DNA from: Promethearchaeota archaeon | GTDB lineage: Archaea; Asgardarchaeota; Lokiarchaeia; Sigyniarchaeales; SOKP01 | Assembly (NCBI GenBank): GCA_004524365.1 | Contig: SDNL01000005.1 | Location: 1 to 35,174 of the forward strand | Length of the DNA: 35,174 bases | Reading direction: 5' to 3' | Part shown: in pieces, positions 10,442-34,346 of the stretch | How the letters are laid out: every line of letters starts with the position of its first letter | Position numbering within the stretch: position 1 is the stretch's first letter | Made by a program: the position numbers and the translations under genes | Notes under the pieces: model-generated | Databases searched by the model: none | What the model was told of the DNA's origin: nothing | Seen by the model: only the letters and a program-made list of their open reading frames with translations

Positions 10442-10535
10442 TTAGCCAAACATAATATATTTTTTGAAAAGAATTAAATTTAAAAATTAGATATAAATAT
10501 ATAAATAAAACTACTCAAAAATCAAGGCGGTCAAA

Positions 10536-11099
10536 ATTTCCTATCGTGGTAAAATTATACTCACCGGCGACCCACAGGTTGGAAAAACCTCCCTATTATC
10601 TAGGTATTGCGATGATAAATTCCCTGATAATTACAATCCCACCGTTGGTGCTAATTTTCTAATAAAGGAAGTGGATCTTACAGATATTATTAGTCAACTG
10701 GATTTAGATAATGAATTAAAACGAGAAGTTGGAAAAAAAGGATTTAAAATATATTTTTGGGATATTGGAGGGCAACACGATAAATTATTTCAAAATGAAT
10801 ATTATTTCCAAGACGCAGTGGGCGCCATAATTGTATTTGACCTTATAAATAAAGAATCATTTGACCATTTGGATTTTTGGATCGATAAAATAAAAAGCCT
10901 CACAGGAAATGACGTTCCTTTTATTATCGTGGGGAATAAAACAGACCTATCAGAAGAACGGAAAATTGCGTTAAATACTATCGAAGAAAAAGCTGAAAAA
11001 CATGGAGTTGAGTATTTCGAAACGTCCGCAAAGAAAGATGAAAATGTTCGTAAGGCATTTGAATCCCTCGCGATTAAAGTGTTGAATAATCTTAAATAA
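10536..11099 (+). CDS. Ras-like small GTPase; probable ATT start
   Basis: Extending the 142-aa ORF upstream in frame gives (M)SYRGKIILTGDPQVGKTSLLSRYCDDKFPDNYNPTVGANFLIKEVDLT..., i.e. G1 P-loop GDPQVGKTS, switch I Thr, then WDIGGQ (G3), NKTD (G4), ETSAK (G5). Stop at 10506; no ATG/GTG/TTG before the P-loop. Confidence 0.92.
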   Translation: MSYRGKIILTGDPQVGKTSLLSRYCDDKFPDNYNPTVGANFLIKEVDLTDIISQLDLDNELKREVGKKGFKIYFWDIGGQHDKLFQNEYYFQDAVGAIIVFDLINKESFDHLDFWIDKIKSLTGNDVPFIIVGNKTDLSEERKIALNTIEEKAEKHGVEYFETSAKKDENVRKAFESLAIKVLNNLK

Positions 11100-13795: not shown

Positions 13796-15808
13796 ATGTC
13801 TGATAAAGAACAGACCAACGGTAACCTTCGAATTGGCATATATGTTTGTAAGTGAGGCGTGAATATCGGTAGTGTCGTAGATTGCGAAGCAGTGAAGGAT
13901 TTTGCGGAGCTCCAACCGAATGTAGTTGTTGCAAAAACAAATAAGTTTACTTGTAGTGATCCTGGTCAGCAAGTGATAAAAAATGATATTTTAGAGCTAG
14001 ATCTTAACCGTGTAGTTGTTGCTGCCTGAACTCCTAAGATACATGAACCGACATACCGTGATGTACTTATGGAGTCTGGGTTGAGCCCCTATTATTTCCA
14101 GATGGTTAATATTCGAGAACAATGTTCATTTGTCCATTCGGATGATAAAGAAGCAGCTACAGAAAAGGCAAAGCGATTAGTTTTAGCGGGAATTAATAGA
14201 GCACGACAATTGGAAGCAGTTCCTCAAGAAGAAATCTCAATTGAGAGGTCAGTCCTTATTGTGGGTGCTGGAATTGCTGGAATGAATGCTGCGCTTGATC
14301 TTGCTAATCAAGGGATAAATGTACACCTAGTAGAAAAAGAACCTACTATCGGCGGAAAGATGGCTCAATTAGACCGAATCTTTCCTACAGACGATTGTGG
14401 AATCTGAGTCTTGGCACCTATCATGGTAAATACATCAAAACACCCGAATATCAACCTTCTAACTTATAGCGAAGTAGTAGAATTTAGCGGGATTACAGGG
14501 AATTATAAAGTAAAAGTAAAAAAGAATCCTCGCTATGTAAATGAAGATAATTGTACGGGGTGTGGACTTTGTACTACAAAATGTCCTATGAATATGCCAA
14601 ATGAATTTGATCGTGGTATTGGGGAACGGAGTGCAATATATATTCCTTTTCCACAAGCTGTCCCAAAATTAGCATTAATCGATCGAGAAGCATGTATCGA
14701 ATGTAAGAGTTGCGAGCGAAATTGTCCCGCAGAAGCAATAGATTTCGAACAAGAACCTGAATATGTGGATTTAACTGTAGGGTCGGTCATTATCGCTACG
14801 GGTTGGGATGAGTATCCAATTTGGAAAACTAATGAATATAAATACGGGATTTATCCCGATGTAATTACACAAATCGAATTAGAACGTATGCTTAGCCCCA
14901 TAGGTCCAACGGACGGTCATGTATACCGAGTTTCTGATGGTAAACAACCAAAACGATTAGCAATGATCCAATGTGTTGGTTCCCGATCCCTTCGAGGAAA
15001 TCAATACTGCTCGGGAGTATGTTGTAGTGTAGCATTAAAAAATGCGCAACTGTTAAAGCAAGAATATCCCGATATGGAAATTGTAATATTTTATATTGAT
15101 ATCAGAACCACAGATAAAGGGAACGAGGAGTATTATCGAAAGATCAGAGAAACTAATATTGGATTCATAAAAGGAAAACCAGGAGACATTAAATTAAACG
15201 AAGATGGAACAATGCGTCTCTTTTATGATAACTCGTTATCGGATCAAGTGACTCATTTAGACGTTGATATGGTTGTATTATCCACGGGTATCATTCCATC
15301 ACAAGGTACGCAAGAGATCGTTGATACCATAGGATTAGAAAAAGGACCTGCTGACTTTTTGTCAGAGATACATGGGTGTTTAAAACCTCAAGAGACTAAA
15401 GATATGGGGATCTACATTTGTGGTTGCGCTGCTGGTCCTAAAAATATTCCCTATTCAGTATCTTCGGCATTAGCCGCAGCAAGTAAAGCATCAACATTAT
15501 TATCTAATGATACAATCAGCCAAGAATTAATCATTGCAGAAGTAGATAAAGATCTCTGTATGGGATGTCATAGATGTGAGAAATCATGTCCTTTCAATTC
15601 AATAAAAGTTGGAGATGAAGATATCGCCGTAGTTGATGAGTTAAAATGCAAGGGATGTGGTATATGCGCGAGTGTGTGTCCAGCAAGAGCTATTGAAGTG
15701 AAATATTATCGAGATACACAGTTTGAGGAGGAATTAAAAGGTATTGGAATGTTAGAATCTCCTCCTATAGAATCTGTAGCAAAAGAACAACAACCAGTAG
15801 GTGATTAA
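13796..15808 (+). CDS. hdrA: HdrA-type heterodisulfide reductase subunit A, selenoprotein with three in-frame UGA (Sec) codons (13853-13855, 14027-14029, 14405-14407)
   Basis: ATG 13796 in frame with ORF fragments 14069 and 14411. Reading TGA as U: ...GIYVCKUGVNIGSVVD..., ...NRVVVAAUTPKIHEPTYRD..., ...FPTDDCGIUVLAPIMVN...; these match HdrA CxCGxNI, VxAACSP..HEPTxR and DC..C.L.PxM motifs with Cys replaced by U. FAD GAGIAGM motif; multiple 4Fe-4S CxxCxxCxxxCP motifs downstream. Confidence 0.95.
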
Positions 15809-16229
15809 ACTGTCTAAACAAACCACATCAAGAAGAATTGTTGCATTTGCCTGTTGGAAATGAGGATATGCTGCCGCCGATTTAACCGGCACAACGAGGA
15901 AAACCTATTCTACAGATGTCCACCTCATTCGGGTGAGATGTACAGGACGAGTAGGAATTCATTTAATAATGCAGAGTTTTCTAAATGGTGCGGATGGCGT
16001 TGCAATCATTTCTTGAAAAGAAGGAGAATGCGAATTTGAACGGGGTAATTTAGTGGCCTATGACCACGTGCAAATGTTAAGCAAGATTTTTGAGCATTTA
16101 AACATCGAAAAGGAACGAGTTCAACAATATTTCTGTTCCGCTGCGGATGTAGAGAAATATATAACCTCAGTAAATGATATAGTAAAAAAAATACACAAAT
16201 TGCCTCCCTTACCAAAAAAAACCGATTAG
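15801..16229 (+). CDS. vhuD: MvhD/VhuD-type methyl-viologen-reducing hydrogenase delta subunit, selenoprotein with two in-frame UGA (Sec) codons (15861-15863, 16014-16016)
   Basis: GTG start overlapping the hdrA stop (GTGATTAA). With TGA=U: MIKLSKQTTSRRIVAFACWKUGYAAADLTGTTRKTYSTDVHLIRVRCTGRVGIHLIMQSFLNGADGVAIISUKEGECEFERGNLVAYDHVQ...QQYFCSAADVEKYITSVNDIVKKIHKL, matching MvhD motifs (FxCNWCxYxxADLAG, RVxCxGRV, GCHPGDCHYxxGN). Confidence 0.94.
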
Positions 16230-18041: not shown

Positions 18042-19784
18042 TCACATTGAAATGGAACCTTTACGAAAATCAGTTTTTCCTATAATTGAATTGATCAATA
18101 CGGGATGCCCTTTTTTATTTAGATTTTTGGCTTCTTGCAAAACGCTATCTATATTATCAGCATTGTCCAATAGTAAGCCCTTGGCGCCACATCCTTCTGC
18201 TATTACATGATAATCATTATATCTTAAAACAGTTGCCACATCATCATTCAAATATTCTACTTGATCTCTTGTTATTTGAGTCCAACCGGCATCATTTCCC
18301 ACAACTGCGATAACGGGAAGATTATGTCTCACGAAAGTATCAAATTCGATGATACTATACCCTGCTGCGCCATCTCCGTATAAAAGCCAGACCTCTGAAT
18401 CGGGATCGCTTAATTTTGCTGCGATTGCAAATCCTGCTCCTACTCCTAAAGTTCCATAAGGTCCAGGATCTAACCAAGATAGGGGATCTTTGGGTTTAAC
18501 AAGGTAAGAGGCTGTAGCAACAAAATCTCCTCCATCACCAATTATTATACTTTTTTCATTCAAGTTAGCGTTTATTCTTTCACACAAAGTAAGGGGATTA
18601 ATATAATCTGTGGATACTTTAGTAAATTCTTTTATTTCTTCTTCTCTTTTTTCATTTAACTTTCTCAACTGCTCATTCCATTCGTTCCAATTAGAAATTA
18701 TACCATCCTCAACTATTTTAGAAAGTTCAATTAAATAGGTGGAGGGGTCTGATTGGATTCCCATATCTGGTTTTTTATTTTTCTTTATCGTTTCTGTGCT
18801 TCGATTGATTTTAATCAATTTAGCTGTTTTTTTAAGGCCTCTCCCATAATTCAACCTAAAATCTAATGGAATTCCTGCTAAGATAATAAGATCAGCATTT
18901 CTGAGAGCATATGATCTTTTATGTCTGAAATATATAGAATGATTAGCTCCTAATAATCCCCGAGCCATTCCACTTAAAAATGTGGGAATTCCCATTTTTT
19001 CAACTGCTATCGACAATTGATTTACAAATTCTACTCGTTTCATTACTTGATTTCCTAAAAGTAAAACTGGTTTCTTACATTGATAAAGGGCTTCTTTAAC
19101 TTCATCAAGGTGCTTATCATCAATCTGAAAAGGGGTAATCCCTTCTAAAAAAGAGATCTCTTCACTTTTTGGTGAACATGCAAACAACTTATCAACATGT
19201 CTCCGTAAATACCATTTGATTACTTTATCAACTAGTCCTTCTGGTTTTGAAATACCTGATTTTTCTCCATACCATTCTCTCACCAATGGCTCATCATAAA
19301 TTAAATCTATTGGACATTCAATAAATACTGGTCCAGGTATGCCAGATTTTGCTACATCAAATGCTTCTTCCATTATCGGAATGAGATCGCAGTCTTGTTC
19401 GATTGTAGCAGACCACTTAACTAAAGTATTAAATAATTGTATTTGTTCAATATCTTGAAGTGCCCCTTTTCCTTTAAGTACAGTAGCGACTGCTCCGCCT
19501 ATAAGAATTAATGGTGATTGTGCCATCTGTGCATTCTTAATAGCAGTAACAGAATTTGTTACACCCGGTCCTGCAGTTACTACAGCAACCCCCGGTTTAC
19601 CAGTCAATCTTGCAGTAGCATCGGCAGCAAAGACTGCCGTGGGCTCTTGCCTAACGTCGATTACCTTTAACCCTTGATTTTTAGCACCTACTAAAATAGG
19701 AGCGATATGACCTCCACATAATGTAAAAATATATTCAACTCCCTGTTTTTTAATCACTTCTGCTAATAATTCTCCTCCATTCAT
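18042..19784 (-). CDS. Thiamine-diphosphate-dependent enzyme, acetolactate synthase-like / ILVBL (2-hydroxyacyl-CoA lyase 2)-like
   Basis: [117 protein letters not shown]. Confidence 0.93.
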
Positions 19785-20176
19785 CTTTCATCCCTCTTTA
19801 AAATGTGCTCCTCTAGAATAAAGCAAACGAATGTCCCTTCGCAAACTAATAAATTATCTCTTCTTACTTCTACTTTCACAATATTTTTTTTTCCTTTTTT
19901 CTCTATTACTTTTCCCTCTGCTAATAAACTTTCTTCTTTTCGTACAGGTTTTAGAAATTTGATTTCTGCTGAGCCTAATACCACGTTTGGATGATTGACA
20001 GCCAACATTGCGGCATAATCTGCTAAACTAAAGATAAAACCACCATGGATCAATCCAGTATCATCTGTTATCATTCTCTCATTTGTGTTAAGTCTTATCT
20101 TGCTGTAATCTTCTTCTAATAATAATGGTTTTCCACTCCATTCAACATCAATCTTATTATGGGTTCTTTGCTTAAT
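19781..20176 (-). CDS. PaaI-like hotdog-fold thioesterase; probable ATT start
   Basis: LIHGGFIFSLADYAAMLAV hotdog motif. Upstream in-frame extension (M)KQRTHNKIDVEWSGKPLLLEEDYSKIRLNTNERMITDDTG completes the expected N-terminal strand; 4-nt overlap (ATGA) with downstream TPP enzyme. Confidence 0.82.
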   Translation of the reverse strand: MKQRTHNKIDVEWSGKPLLLEEDYSKIRLNTNERMITDDTGLIHGGFIFSLADYAAMLAVNHPNVVLGSAEIKFLKPVRKEESLLAEGKVIEKKGKKNIVKVEVRRDNLLVCEGTFVCFILEEHILKRDER

Positions 20177-20509: not shown

Positions 20510-20677
20510 AACCTTTTTTGCATTAATGACATAATTTTCATTCCCTTATTTTTTATTCTATTAATTTTCTTATTTTTCTTTTAAGAATAAACTCCAATTT
20601 CCCATAGATTGATTAGAAATAGAAAAATTAATTAAAAAAGACCAATTAATTTAATCAAAGTAAGTCAAAGGTAGATT

Positions 20678-21202
20678 ATTATTTCGCAACCGTTACGACC
20701 ACAAAACTTCAAGGAACAAGTATATTTTACCCAATTCAGGAAAAGTATCGATGGGAATAATACCCTTGAATATGGGTTAACAAATATTAAAGGTATCGGG
20801 CAGAGATTTGCTCAAGCAGTCGTGAAAGCAGCAAATATGGACCCAAATTCACGAATTGGGGCTCTTTCCGAAAAAGAGATCGAATTACTCGAAGAAATTA
20901 TCACTAATCCTATTGACCATGGAATTCCAAGCTGGATGGTAAATAGGAAAAAGGATCTAAGGACTGGCAAGGATAGACATATTCTAGGGAACGAATTGGA
21001 GATTACTGTTAAGCGAGACATTGATAGAATGAAACGCATTAAAAGTTATAAAGGAATTCGACATCAACTGGGTTTGAAGGTTCGTGGACAGCGAACAAAA
21101 AGTACGGGAAGACATGGATTAGTTATCGGTGTCCAACGTAAAAAGATTCGCCAGCAAATGGAGAAGAAGGCCAAGAAAAAGAAGAAAAAGGAGGAGAGTT
21201 AA
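20678..21202 (+). CDS. rps13: 30S ribosomal protein S13; probable ATT start (20678 or 20681)
   Basis: In-frame upstream of the tracked GTG (20822): SQPLRPQNFKEQVYFTQFRKSIDGNNTLEYGLTNIKGIGQRFAQAVVKAA..., then GLKVRGQRTKSTGRHG. Preceded by TAG stop at 20672 and SD-like AAAGG. Confidence 0.93.
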   Translation: MISQPLRPQNFKEQVYFTQFRKSIDGNNTLEYGLTNIKGIGQRFAQAVVKAANMDPNSRIGALSEKEIELLEEIITNPIDHGIPSWMVNRKKDLRTGKDRHILGNELEITVKRDIDRMKRIKSYKGIRHQLGLKVRGQRTKSTGRHGLVIGVQRKKIRQQMEKKAKKKKKKEES

Positions 21203-21204
21203 GA

Positions 21205-21696
21205 ATGGGAGATCCACGACGATTAAAGAAGAAGTTTAAGAAACCCCGACATCCTTATCAAAAGGATCGTATTATGGAAGAGTTGGAGTTCATTGGAAAA
21301 TATGGATTACGCAATAAACGAGAATTCTGGAAAATGCGTTCAACATTAGGACGATGGCGAGAAATTGCTCGGCAATCCCGAACATTACCAGAAGATCGAG
21401 CAAAAGAGGTTCAGCAAACCTTAATTCAAAAGTTAATAAGGTTGGGTATTCTAGAAAATGATGCTACATTTGATGATGTACTTAATCTAACTGTGGAAGA
21501 TATATTAAGGAGACGCCTTCAAACACAAGTGCATGAAAGAGGTCTCTCTAAAACCATATATCACGCACGTCAATTAATAAATCATAAGCATATCCAAGTG
21601 GGAAACAAACGAATTGCCGCACCATCTTATCTGGTAAAACGCGAAGAGGAAGAATTAATCTCGTTTGCCCCGACAAGTCCTTTTAGCACAAAATAG
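21205..21696 (+). CDS. rps4: 30S ribosomal protein S4
   Basis: MGDPRRLKKKFKKPRHPYQKDRI...YGLRNKREFWKMRSTLGRWR...; classical archaeal S4. Confidence 0.96.
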   Translation: MGDPRRLKKKFKKPRHPYQKDRIMEELEFIGKYGLRNKREFWKMRSTLGRWREIARQSRTLPEDRAKEVQQTLIQKLIRLGILENDATFDDVLNLTVEDILRRRLQTQVHERGLSKTIYHARQLINHKHIQVGNKRIAAPSYLVKREEEELISFAPTSPFSTK

Positions 21697-21767: not shown

Positions 21768-22154
21768 ATGCGTGGAAAAGAAGCAATTGTTCACATTTAT
21801 GCCTCATATAATAACACGCTTGTAACTGCTACAGATATCTCAGGTGCCGAAACCTTTTGTAGTTGTTCTGGTGGGATGATCGTAAAGCAAGATCGGAACG
21901 AGTCCTCACCTCAAACAGCGATGAAATGCGGGTTTCGAATTGCAAGCGAATTAAAGGATATAGGAATATCCAATATTCATATTAAAGTTCGAGCCCCTGG
22001 AGGAAATAAGTCTCAAACACCCGGTCCAGGAGCTCAAGCGTGTATCAGAGCTTTGGCACGCTCTGGGTTAAATATCGGAAGAATTGAAGAAGTTACACCT
22101 CGAAGCCATGATCACTGCCGAAGAAAAGGCGGTCATCGTGGACGCAGAGTCTAA
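21768..22154 (+). CDS. rps11: 30S ribosomal protein S11
   Basis: [23 protein letters not shown]...[57 protein letters not shown]-like AAGGTGG places start at ATG 21768 rather than GTG 21759. Confidence 0.97.
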
Positions 22155-24012: not shown

Positions 24013-25953
24013 ATGAGTCAAGAGGATAAAGATACTTCAATACTTAAAGAGATAAAAGAGCTTTTCGATTTTCTCATCAATGATAAACCAACGCCAGATG
24101 ATGAAATAGAGGCAAAAGAAGTATTATTAGAGAAGTTTCAAAAATTAAAAGATTTAAAATCTCGTCCAGCACAAGAGAAACTAATTAATAGCATTATAAA
24201 GGAGTTAGAAGATTGGGATACATTGGAACATTGGTTCTTCGAAACAGATCTACCAGAGGAGATCAAGGAATTCATTGATGAAATAGAAGGAAAAGAAGAA
24301 AAATCCTTAGAGAAAGATTCAATCACAGAGGAAGAAGAAAGAAAAAAAGATTCAGAAGCAAGCTCGCCCGAATTAGATATATCTAAAATAATTTCAGAAG
24401 TTACCAACCAATTCAAGGGAGAGATAGGAAATCTAGAAAAGAAAATAGAGAGTTTAACAAAAAAATTAAAAGAAAAGGACGAAAAACTCGGGGAAGTTAA
24501 AAAAGAGATTCAAAAGAAAAAAGAAAAACCCAAGTCTGAACCCGAACCTAAAAAGAAATCCAGATTACCTCCCATTAAAATTGAGCTTCCTCCCTCTTCC
24601 AGAAAAAGTCAAAAAACTGAGAAGAAGGTAAAAAAAATAGAAGAGGAAAAAGAGGAAGAACCTATAAATGAAGAAAAATTAATGGAAAAAATAATTGAAG
24701 AAAGAAAAGCTTTACTCGAAAAAAGTGTTCCAAAAAAACCAAGTAAAGAGCAAGACTTAACTCCAATACCTAATGAAGCAGAACCGGAAGATGAACAAAA
24801 CGATCTTGATAAAGCAGAAATCCCTCCAGTTGAAGAATTTGAATATGAGGGTTTTAATGATTTTGTGGAATCTGTTGAATCAAATGCTAGCGAACCCAAA
24901 AAACCATCCGAAGAGCCACCTGCACCTCCTGAAACAAAAGAAATACCGGAACCTAAAAAACCATCCGAAGCACCGCCTGCACCTCCTGAAACAAAAGAAA
25001 TACCGGAATCTAAAAAACGATCCGAAGAGCCACCTGCACCTCCTGAAACAAAAGAAATACCGGAACCTAAAAAACGATCCGAAGAGCCACCTGCACCTCC
25101 TGAAACAAAAGAAATACCGGAACCTAAAAAACCATCCGAAGCACCGCCTGCACCTCCTGAAACAAAAGAAATACCGGAACCTAAAAAACCATCTGAAGCT
25201 GCATCTACACCTCCAGGAATGGAAGAGATACCAAAGCCTGATGAATTAGTTAATGATACCAAAGTATCAGTAAGTGAAGGGGAAGAGAAACCAGAAAAAC
25301 CCTCTACCACTCCATCAATCGAATCAACCCCTCTTGAACCAGAACAAGATAATGATATAAGTGAAGAGAAAGAACCTTCTGATATCTCGGCTCCAGAACC
25401 TCAAGCCACATCAGTAGAAGTATCTGTGGAAGAATCATCAGAAAAACCTCAAAAAGTAAGTGGGATAGCAGAAATAAAAGTTGAAGAAGTCGTAGAGAAA
25501 AAGAAGAAATCCTCAGCTCAAGATCTTTATAATGTTTTCTCTGCAATGTTAAACGATTCAAAATCAAAAAAGTCTAGCGGTAAAAAATCTAAGTTAAAAG
25601 AGTCCGTTAAAAGTTTAATACCCACTTCAAAACCAGAAAAACCTAATGAAAAAGCTGAAGAAGCTCAAGAATTAACACAGGAGGGGTCAGAACAGCAAAA
25701 AGATGAGATTGAAATTTTTGAACAAGGTATCGAAACTTTACCTGATGATAAAGACCAGTTATATCAAGAATTAATTGCAATGGAAGGAAAAAGATATTCC
25801 TTGGAAAAAGATATTAACAAATTGGAAGAGCGCTATGAAAATGGAAGCATTGATGAATTTGAATTTAAAAATGAGATTCAAAAATTTAAAGTAAACTTGG
25901 AACGGATTACTTCCTACATTACAGATATTAGGCGAAAAATAGCAACGATGTAA
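24013..25953 (+). CDS. Large low-complexity/coiled-coil protein with Pro-rich tandem repeats
   Basis: 646 aa; acidic-helical N-terminus, K/E coiled coil, EPKKPSEEPPAPPETKEIP repeats, C-terminal helical hairpin QLYQELIAMEGKRYSLEKDINKLEERYENGSIDEFEFKNEIQKFK. Confidence 0.85.
   Translation: MSQEDKDTSILKEIKELFDFLINDKPTPDDEIEAKEVLLEKFQKLKDLKSRPAQEKLINSIIKELEDWDTLEHWFFETDLPEEIKEFIDEIEGKEEKSLEKDSITEEEERKKDSEASSPELDISKIISEVTNQFKGEIGNLEKKIESLTKKLKEKDEKLGEVKKEIQKKKEKPKSEPEPKKKSRLPPIKIELPPSSRKSQKTEKKVKKIEEEKEEEPINEEKLMEKIIEERKALLEKSVPKKPSKEQDLTPIPNEAEPEDEQNDLDKAEIPPVEEFEYEGFNDFVESVESNASEPKKPSEEPPAPPETKEIPEPKKPSEAPPAPPETKEIPESKKRSEEPPAPPETKEIPEPKKRSEEPPAPPETKEIPEPKKPSEAPPAPPETKEIPEPKKPSEAASTPPGMEEIPKPDELVNDTKVSVSEGEEKPEKPSTTPSIESTPLEPEQDNDISEEKEPSDISAPEPQATSVEVSVEESSEKPQKVSGIAEIKVEEVVEKKKKSSAQDLYNVFSAMLNDSKSKKSSGKKSKLKESVKSLIPTSKPEKPNEKAEEAQELTQEGSEQQKDEIEIFEQGIETLPDDKDQLYQELIAMEGKRYSLEKDINKLEERYENGSIDEFEFKNEIQKFKVNLERITSYITDIRRKIATM
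24892..25233 (+). repeat. Six 57-bp tandem repeats (five near-identical, last diverged)
   Basis: Unit gaacctaaaaaaccatccgaagagccacctgcacctcctgaaacaaaagaaataccg encoding EPKKPSE(E/A)PPAPPETKEIP. Confidence 0.93.
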
Positions 25954-32239: not shown

Positions 32240-33004
32240 ATGATTGAGAACTTTATTTTTGGAATCATCTTATCCTTTTTGGCGGGGCTTTCTACTGCCA
32301 TAGGAGGTATTATGGCTTTTGTTTTTAAGGATCCCGGACCAAAATTTCTTTCTGCTATAATGGGTTTTTCTGCTGGAGTAATGATCTTTATCAGTTTTGC
32401 CGAGTTGCTTCAAGAAGCCATAGCTGTGTATGAAATATTTGTTGGTTCCTTATTTTTCTTTCTTGGAATGGGGATTATGTTCATTATTGATGTTGCTATT
32501 TCACATAAATATCATTTTCAAGAGGATTATTTTAAAAAGGAATGTACTATTAATGATAGATTAACAAGGGCATCTATATTTGTGTTTTTGGGTGTTTTCA
32601 TTCATAATCTACCAGAAGGGTTAGCCACGATGGTCGGATCATTGGAAAATGTCGAATTAGGAATTATTTTAGCAATTGCTATTGCCCTTCATAATATTCC
32701 CGAAGGCATCGCGGTAGCAATTCCTACTTGTGCGTCCTTAGATGATGAGAAAAAGGGATTTTTCTGGGCATTTTTATCAGGGATGAGTGAGCCAATTGGA
32801 GCAATCGTATTCGGTTTAATATTTATTCCCTTTATTAACGAATATATCCTAGCAGCGCTACTTGCAGTCGTGGCAGGTATTATGGTGTATGTTAGTGTGG
32901 ATGAATTACTACCCGTTTCTCAATGTTTTGGAAATGAGAAGATGTCTATGATTGGATTAGTATCGGGAATGTTTATAATGGCATTAAGCTTGGCTTTCCT
33001 TTAA
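32240..33004 (+). CDS. ZIP family metal transporter (ZupT-like)
   Basis: HNLPEGLATMVGS and ALHNIPEGIAVAIP signature motifs; multi-TM. Confidence 0.94.
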   Translation: MIENFIFGIILSFLAGLSTAIGGIMAFVFKDPGPKFLSAIMGFSAGVMIFISFAELLQEAIAVYEIFVGSLFFFLGMGIMFIIDVAISHKYHFQEDYFKKECTINDRLTRASIFVFLGVFIHNLPEGLATMVGSLENVELGIILAIAIALHNIPEGIAVAIPTCASLDDEKKGFFWAFLSGMSEPIGAIVFGLIFIPFINEYILAALLAVVAGIMVYVSVDELLPVSQCFGNEKMSMIGLVSGMFIMALSLAFL

Positions 33005-34009: not shown

Positions 34010-34192
34010 TTATTCACTTCGAACAAGGCTTTTAAGTTCTGTTTTTAAGAGATCCCTTATCGCAACTCGAATCGCCTCAGACCGATTGGGATAATAGTTG
34101 CTTTCTACTAATTCCTCAATTCCTTTGATATACTGCTCAGGAACATGACAAGTGATGAGTTTTATAGTTCGACACCCATTGTTTTTTAAAAT
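34010..34192 (-). CDS. Ribbon-helix-helix (CopG-like) DNA-binding protein; no canonical start, probable ATT
   Basis: Reverse-strand frame: (M)LKNNGCRTIKLITCHVPEQYIKGIEELVESNYYPNRSEAIRVAIRDLLKTELKSLVRSE*. VPEQYIKGIEELV...YPNRSEAIRVAIRDLL is the RHH pattern. Absent from ORF track. Confidence 0.82.
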   Translation of the reverse strand: MLKNNGCRTIKLITCHVPEQYIKGIEELVESNYYPNRSEAIRVAIRDLLKTELKSLVRSE

Positions 34193-34346
34193 ATTATTTT
34201 GTTAATTCTAGGGAGAGTATTTTGAAATATTAATTTATATAATACTAGAATAATACAAGCTATTGGTAATTTCAATATTGTATTAGCAGAGCTATTGATT
34301 AAACAAAAATCAATAATTTAAAATTATATCGAATTTTTGGTACAAT

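Follow-up and report, generated by a model that had tools for sequence, protein, structure and literature searches.

The RHH frame and other genes in the window

The window, by which we mean the whole stretch of 35,174 nucleotides that was analyzed, contains on the minus strand a stop-to-stop frame of 64 codons (34010-34201) that is bounded upstream by an in-frame TAA at 34202..34204 (-) and reads CAA AAT AAT ATT TTA AAA AAC AAT GGG TGT CGA ACT ATA AAA CTC ATC ACT TGT CAT GTT CCT and onwards. The initial annotation had listed the codons from CAA to ATA between this TAA and the conserved region, and its list matches the sequence exactly. It had also described a clear CopG/RHH protein lacking a canonical start, and this description holds in both respects: the protein scores 33.2 bits against the Pfam profile RHH_1 (PF01402), where the cut-off for family membership is 20.5, and none of the 64 codons is ATG, GTG, TTG or CTG. 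From the profile match and the start-column alignment described below, the coding sequence of 51 codons was placed at 34010..34165 (-), with ATA at 34163-34165 as the putative start and TAA at 34010-34012 as the stop. A Shine-Dalgarno (SD)-like GGGTG, read from the sequence, lies at 34173..34177 (-), 7 nt before the ATA.

Homologues of the RHH protein were found in 41 of the 41 genomes searched (its own genome counted), and the pair formed with the homologue in genome G004 shows 88% amino acid identity, with a pN of 0.12 and a pS of 0.79. Because homologues are present in every genome searched and pS lies far above pN, we regard the frame as a living gene under strong purifying selection, encoding a small putative DNA-binding regulator.

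Three more genes in the window had been claimed to lack a canonical start, and this proved correct for all of them: each has ATT as its putative start and meets its first canonical codon 34 to 54 codons into the frame. The 4HBT thioesterase (19781..20176 (-)) would start at ATT 20174-20176, directly after an in-frame TGA; its leader, GGGGTGAAATGA, runs up to the ATT and places a GGTGA 5 nt upstream, and no canonical codon occurs before codon index 34, where the first one stands. For the Ras-like small GTPase (10536..11099 (+)) the putative start is ATT 10536-10538, where AAGGCGGTCAAA is followed by ATT TCC TAT CGT GGT AAA; an upstream ATC at 10521 was rejected in favor of this ATT, and the first canonical codon, at index 54, lies beyond the P-loop. 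The gene for ribosomal protein uS13 (rps13; 20681..21202 (+)) should start at one of the three consecutive ATT codons at 20675-20683, in the context AAAGGTAG ATT ATT ATT TCG CAA, the best aligned of them being 20681-20683; an SD-like AGGT (20669..20672 (+)) lies 8 nt before this codon, and the frame reaches a canonical codon only at index 49. The SD sequences of rps13 (AGGT) and of the GTPase (GGCGGTC) are weaker than that of the RHH gene. Two other candidates were discarded: the gene at 32240 has an ATG directly before the ATT in question, and rps11, an odd start in the list of open reading frames, has an SD-led ATG at 21768.

Some observations on the window concern other matters. An HdrA-like frame at 14030-15808 (+) is broken by a TGA at 14405-14407 (DDCGI-TGA-VLAPIM), and the hydrogenase-like region at 15864-16229 is split; the two look like selenocysteine proteins, which have been reported for Lokiarchaeota. 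A long coiled and acidic protein with a tandem proline-rich repeat (PEPKKPSEAPPAPPETKEI) is encoded at 24013-25953 (+).

Start codons in related genomes

The start of the RHH gene was placed by alignment of 20 relatives and then of 80 named loci from Lokiarchaeota, Thorarchaeota and other Asgard archaea. The start column holds ATA in the window genome, aligned with the ATG of relatives, and an ATT further upstream was rejected as the start on this alignment. Over the 80 loci the column contains ATG 53 times, ATA 12, ATT 6, GTG 3, ATC 2 and TTG 2, while in the two remaining rows, with CTA and CTC, an ATG stands a few codons earlier. In several homologues a stop codon stands immediately 5' of the AUA or AUU, as in genome G001 where TAA is directly followed by ATT, and no upstream start is possible in such homologues because the codon before the AUA or AUU is itself a stop. 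We write AUH for AUA, AUC or AUU (H being A, C or U). On a tree of uS13, uS4 and uS11 the use of AUH in the RHH gene is scattered over genera g1, g2, g3 and g9 rather than confined to a single clade, and RHH homologues starting with ATT or ATC were also found in distant Asgard families (L350 of G049 in f12, and G179-G181 in f26); the trait therefore extends beyond Lokiarchaeota.

In every AUH version of the RHH gene the SD match covers 4 nt or more, at a spacing of 4-7 nt. In Lokiarchaeota the match covers 4-8 nt in AUH genes vs mostly 2-3 nt in ATG genes (Mann-Whitney p = 1e-5, a generous value since the rows are related, and a comparison that is weak outside genus g1).

Ribosomal protein uS4 (rps4; 21205..21696 (+)) starts with ATG in the window genome. 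In a phylum-wide scan 15 genomes of genus g2 match, with ATC in 11 cases, ATA in 1 and ATG in 3, vs ATG in 34/34 matching genomes from the remaining genera of its family. The ATC of uS4 in G013 of genus g2 (L288, C112) comes after AAGGTGATGCAAA, with an in-frame stop just upstream (TGA TGC AAA ahead of the ATC), and the start in G005 is ATA. The corresponding scan for the RHH gene gave 13 ATA, 2 ATT, 3 TTG and 0 ATG in genus g2. The pattern in both scans also admitted GTA, GTT, GTC, TTA, TTT and TTC as the first codon, and among the matches listed none of these occurs; all are ATG, GTG, TTG, ATA, ATT or ATC. Judged from the aligned codons, this spectrum is a start-codon signature and not that of an internal hydrophobic residue, and we regard uS4 of genus g2 as the decisive case for AUH starts.

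For other genes we used a homology method in which the relatives vote for the start column. It returned AUH starts with GGTGA sites for an ABC ATPase in the window genome, where AACGGTGATTCT is directly followed by ATT, for a transcription-regulator-like protein in genus g3, for a HIT protein in G013, and for uS4 in G005 and G013. In G020 and G011 the HIT protein has an apparent ATT start that was set aside as ambiguous, a canonical codon lying within 3 codons. Outside the RHH family AUH and canonical starts number 3 vs 61 in g1, 3 vs 21 in g2 and 2 vs 22 in g3, compared with 0 vs 62 in the other genera of family f1; these are small numbers, and 12 columns with other codons represent alignment noise.

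Relatives were also compared at the loci in the window. The GTPase starts with ATG, TTG, ATA or ATT in relatives, and the thioesterase with ATG, apart from an ATC in the same-genus genome G003. Canonical starts in relatives at all four loci, together with a lack of genome-wide ATT enrichment, would have spoken against the initial annotation, and this outcome did not occur: ATA, ATT or ATC recur among relatives at the RHH, GTPase and thioesterase loci. The exception is rps13, which has ATG in relatives and AUU in the window genome alone. The near-cognate AUH starts align to the canonical start of their orthologues and have no usable canonical codon in frame; conservation of the AUH start among relatives was found for RHH and uS4 in genus g2, and not for rps13.

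Genome-wide signal and possible explanations

The proposal that ATT is enriched after SD sequences throughout the genome was examined at coding onsets, where AUH codons lying 5-8 nt after an SD 5-mer were compared with those at a control spacing, using no homology. In 488 kb of the window genome there are 19 SD-spaced AUH codons at onsets vs 8 at control spacing, an odds ratio of 3.6 relative to non-start codons (p = 0.002), and the enrichment is thus present. G004 gave an odds ratio of 2.5 (p = 0.012) and Thorarchaeota 1.4, while the excess is absent in the related Harpocratesius (0.93). Where frames of the window genome have no SD-led canonical codon, the AUH counts are 19/80 vs 4/75. A first raw count of SD-codon pairs in G004 (ATT 26 vs 13 expected, ATC 12 vs 2.5 expected) included non-coding frames and is suggestive only. 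An unsupervised start-free EM model of the window genome assigned approximately 1% to ATT, but such a model is underpowered for start codons that are seldom used and yet abundant in AT-rich noncoding DNA, so that AUH is either rare overall or invisible to this method; we keep the figure as evidence against a high frequency. ATG starts greatly predominate and AUH is a minority class, making up roughly 5-12% of testable starts in genera g1-g3, an estimate resting on few genes. From these comparisons, in which most genomes are MAGs, we conclude that initiation at AUA, AUU and AUC is real and recurrent in Lokiarchaeota, and variable between lineages. Of the genome-wide AUU (or AUA) initiation suggested earlier, the enrichment of SD-spaced AUH stands, while its generality must be narrowed to a minority class that varies by lineage, and AUC has to be added.

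We consider it very probable that the RHH gene is an ordinary, expressed gene starting at AUA, that AUU and AUC are used likewise in a minority of Lokiarchaeota genes, and that a strong SD compensates for the codon. Archaeal initiation on SD mRNAs is known to preposition the 30S subunit, and aIF1 destabilizes non-AUG complexes (PMC6237735). In the RHH gene the GGGTG 7 nt upstream would position the 30S subunit at the AUA, and the initiator tRNA, which has the anticodon CAU and presumably carries methionine, would be accepted on a codon mismatched only at the third base. AUU and AUC may be used in the same manner in a minority of genes, including those for ribosomal proteins, in this and related Lokiarchaeota, with a strong SD offsetting the weaker codon. 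We infer that methionine is inserted at AUH by the usual initiator tRNA with a yield below that of AUG; the use of AUH in uS4 and uS13 suggests either a yield that is not very low or some compensation for it. More tentatively, and with somewhat more doubt than belief, every AUN codon could be a legitimate start in Lokiarchaeota and perhaps in the wider Asgard archaea, third-position checking being relaxed and SD strength being the main determinant, in which case AUA, AUU and AUC would be everyday start codons across the genome, ribosomal protein genes included.

A different explanation is that AUH acts gene by gene as an attenuator, as in bacterial infC or ccpN, its deliberate weakness holding down the level of regulators such as the RHH protein, and does not reflect a general leniency of the initiation machinery. 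It would fit the RHH regulator having AUH starts in many separate lineages, and in S. aureus AUU and AUA with an extended SD give approximately 10% (up to 30%) of AUG expression, including in the regulator gene ccpN (PMC13009471). However, uS4, uS13, the thioesterase, the GTPase and the ABC ATPase use AUH too, and the excess of AUH at coding onsets is general, so we hold attenuation to be possible but the less probable account.

Alternatively, AUH could be read by a second initiator tRNA that differs in its anticodon (NAU) or bears a modified C34. All three AUH codons do occur, but a third-position mismatch rule would explain this equally well, and the conventional initiator anticodon arm GGGCTCATAACCC is present in G001, G002, G013 and others, while the variants are scattered, with none tracking a clade of AUH users among the genomes examined; this makes an altered tRNA unlikely. 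Matches to aIF1 (SUI1) were found in 34/41 genomes, with profile scores of 47-54 bits in g1 and g3 and 65-70 bits in g6 and g8, but the AUH-rich g2 partly has higher scores, and we claim no link between aIF1 score and start-codon leniency. Inspection of the initiator tRNA and aIF1, also proposed earlier, revealed no relaxed form of either in the anticodon arms and profile scores compared. That sequencing errors, pseudogenes or frameshifts mask a real ATG is very improbable and already largely refuted: the window genome is a MAG that is 62% complete and divided into 166 contigs, but many MAGs of independent origin show the same AUH codons, pN far below pS indicates purifying selection, and in-frame stops leave no room upstream.

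Relation to known start codon usage

In Asgard archaea, on which reconstructions of the origin of eukaryotes are based, gene finders restricted to ATG, GTG and TTG will lose or truncate AUH-start genes; small genes like the RHH regulator vanish wholly from annotation and larger ones lose conserved N-termini. AUH starts may also provide a natural system for studying the control of start codons by archaeal aIF1, aIF2 and initiator tRNA. The search for earlier descriptions covered open-access literature and found none of recurrent AUH initiation in Asgard archaea, and its recurrent use, including in ribosomal proteins, seems to be new. A 2021 review regards archaeal non-canonical translation as demonstrated only at elongation and termination (PMC8211752).

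Bacterial infC and pcnB are known to have AUU starts. In S. aureus infC, ccpN, cvfC1 and citZ start with AUA or AUU (PMC13009471). The Lokiarchaeota starts resemble the infC and ccpN kind in combining a third-position near-cognate codon with a strong SD, in being kept across relatives and in occurring partly in regulators, but the bacterial cases concern a handful of genes and are read as attenuation, whereas here the organism is an archaeon and many gene families are involved, including ribosomal proteins. One Asgard tubulin was given, on inspection, a "rare ATT start codon" (PMC13394414), and shares with our cases the Asgard host and an ATT start deduced via homology and ribosome binding site spacing, but this was a single gene in a heimdallarchaeial genome and was treated as a rarity. 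Finally, a study covering 36 bacterial and archaeal groups found 1 switch from AUG to AUU among 61,358 ancestral AUG starts, a count that relied on annotated starts (PMC5622118). As with the AUG, GUG and UUG switches in that study, orthologous starts change codon here and the weaker codons have the better conserved SD, but in Lokiarchaeota, unlike in that study, the switches to AUH have been repeated.
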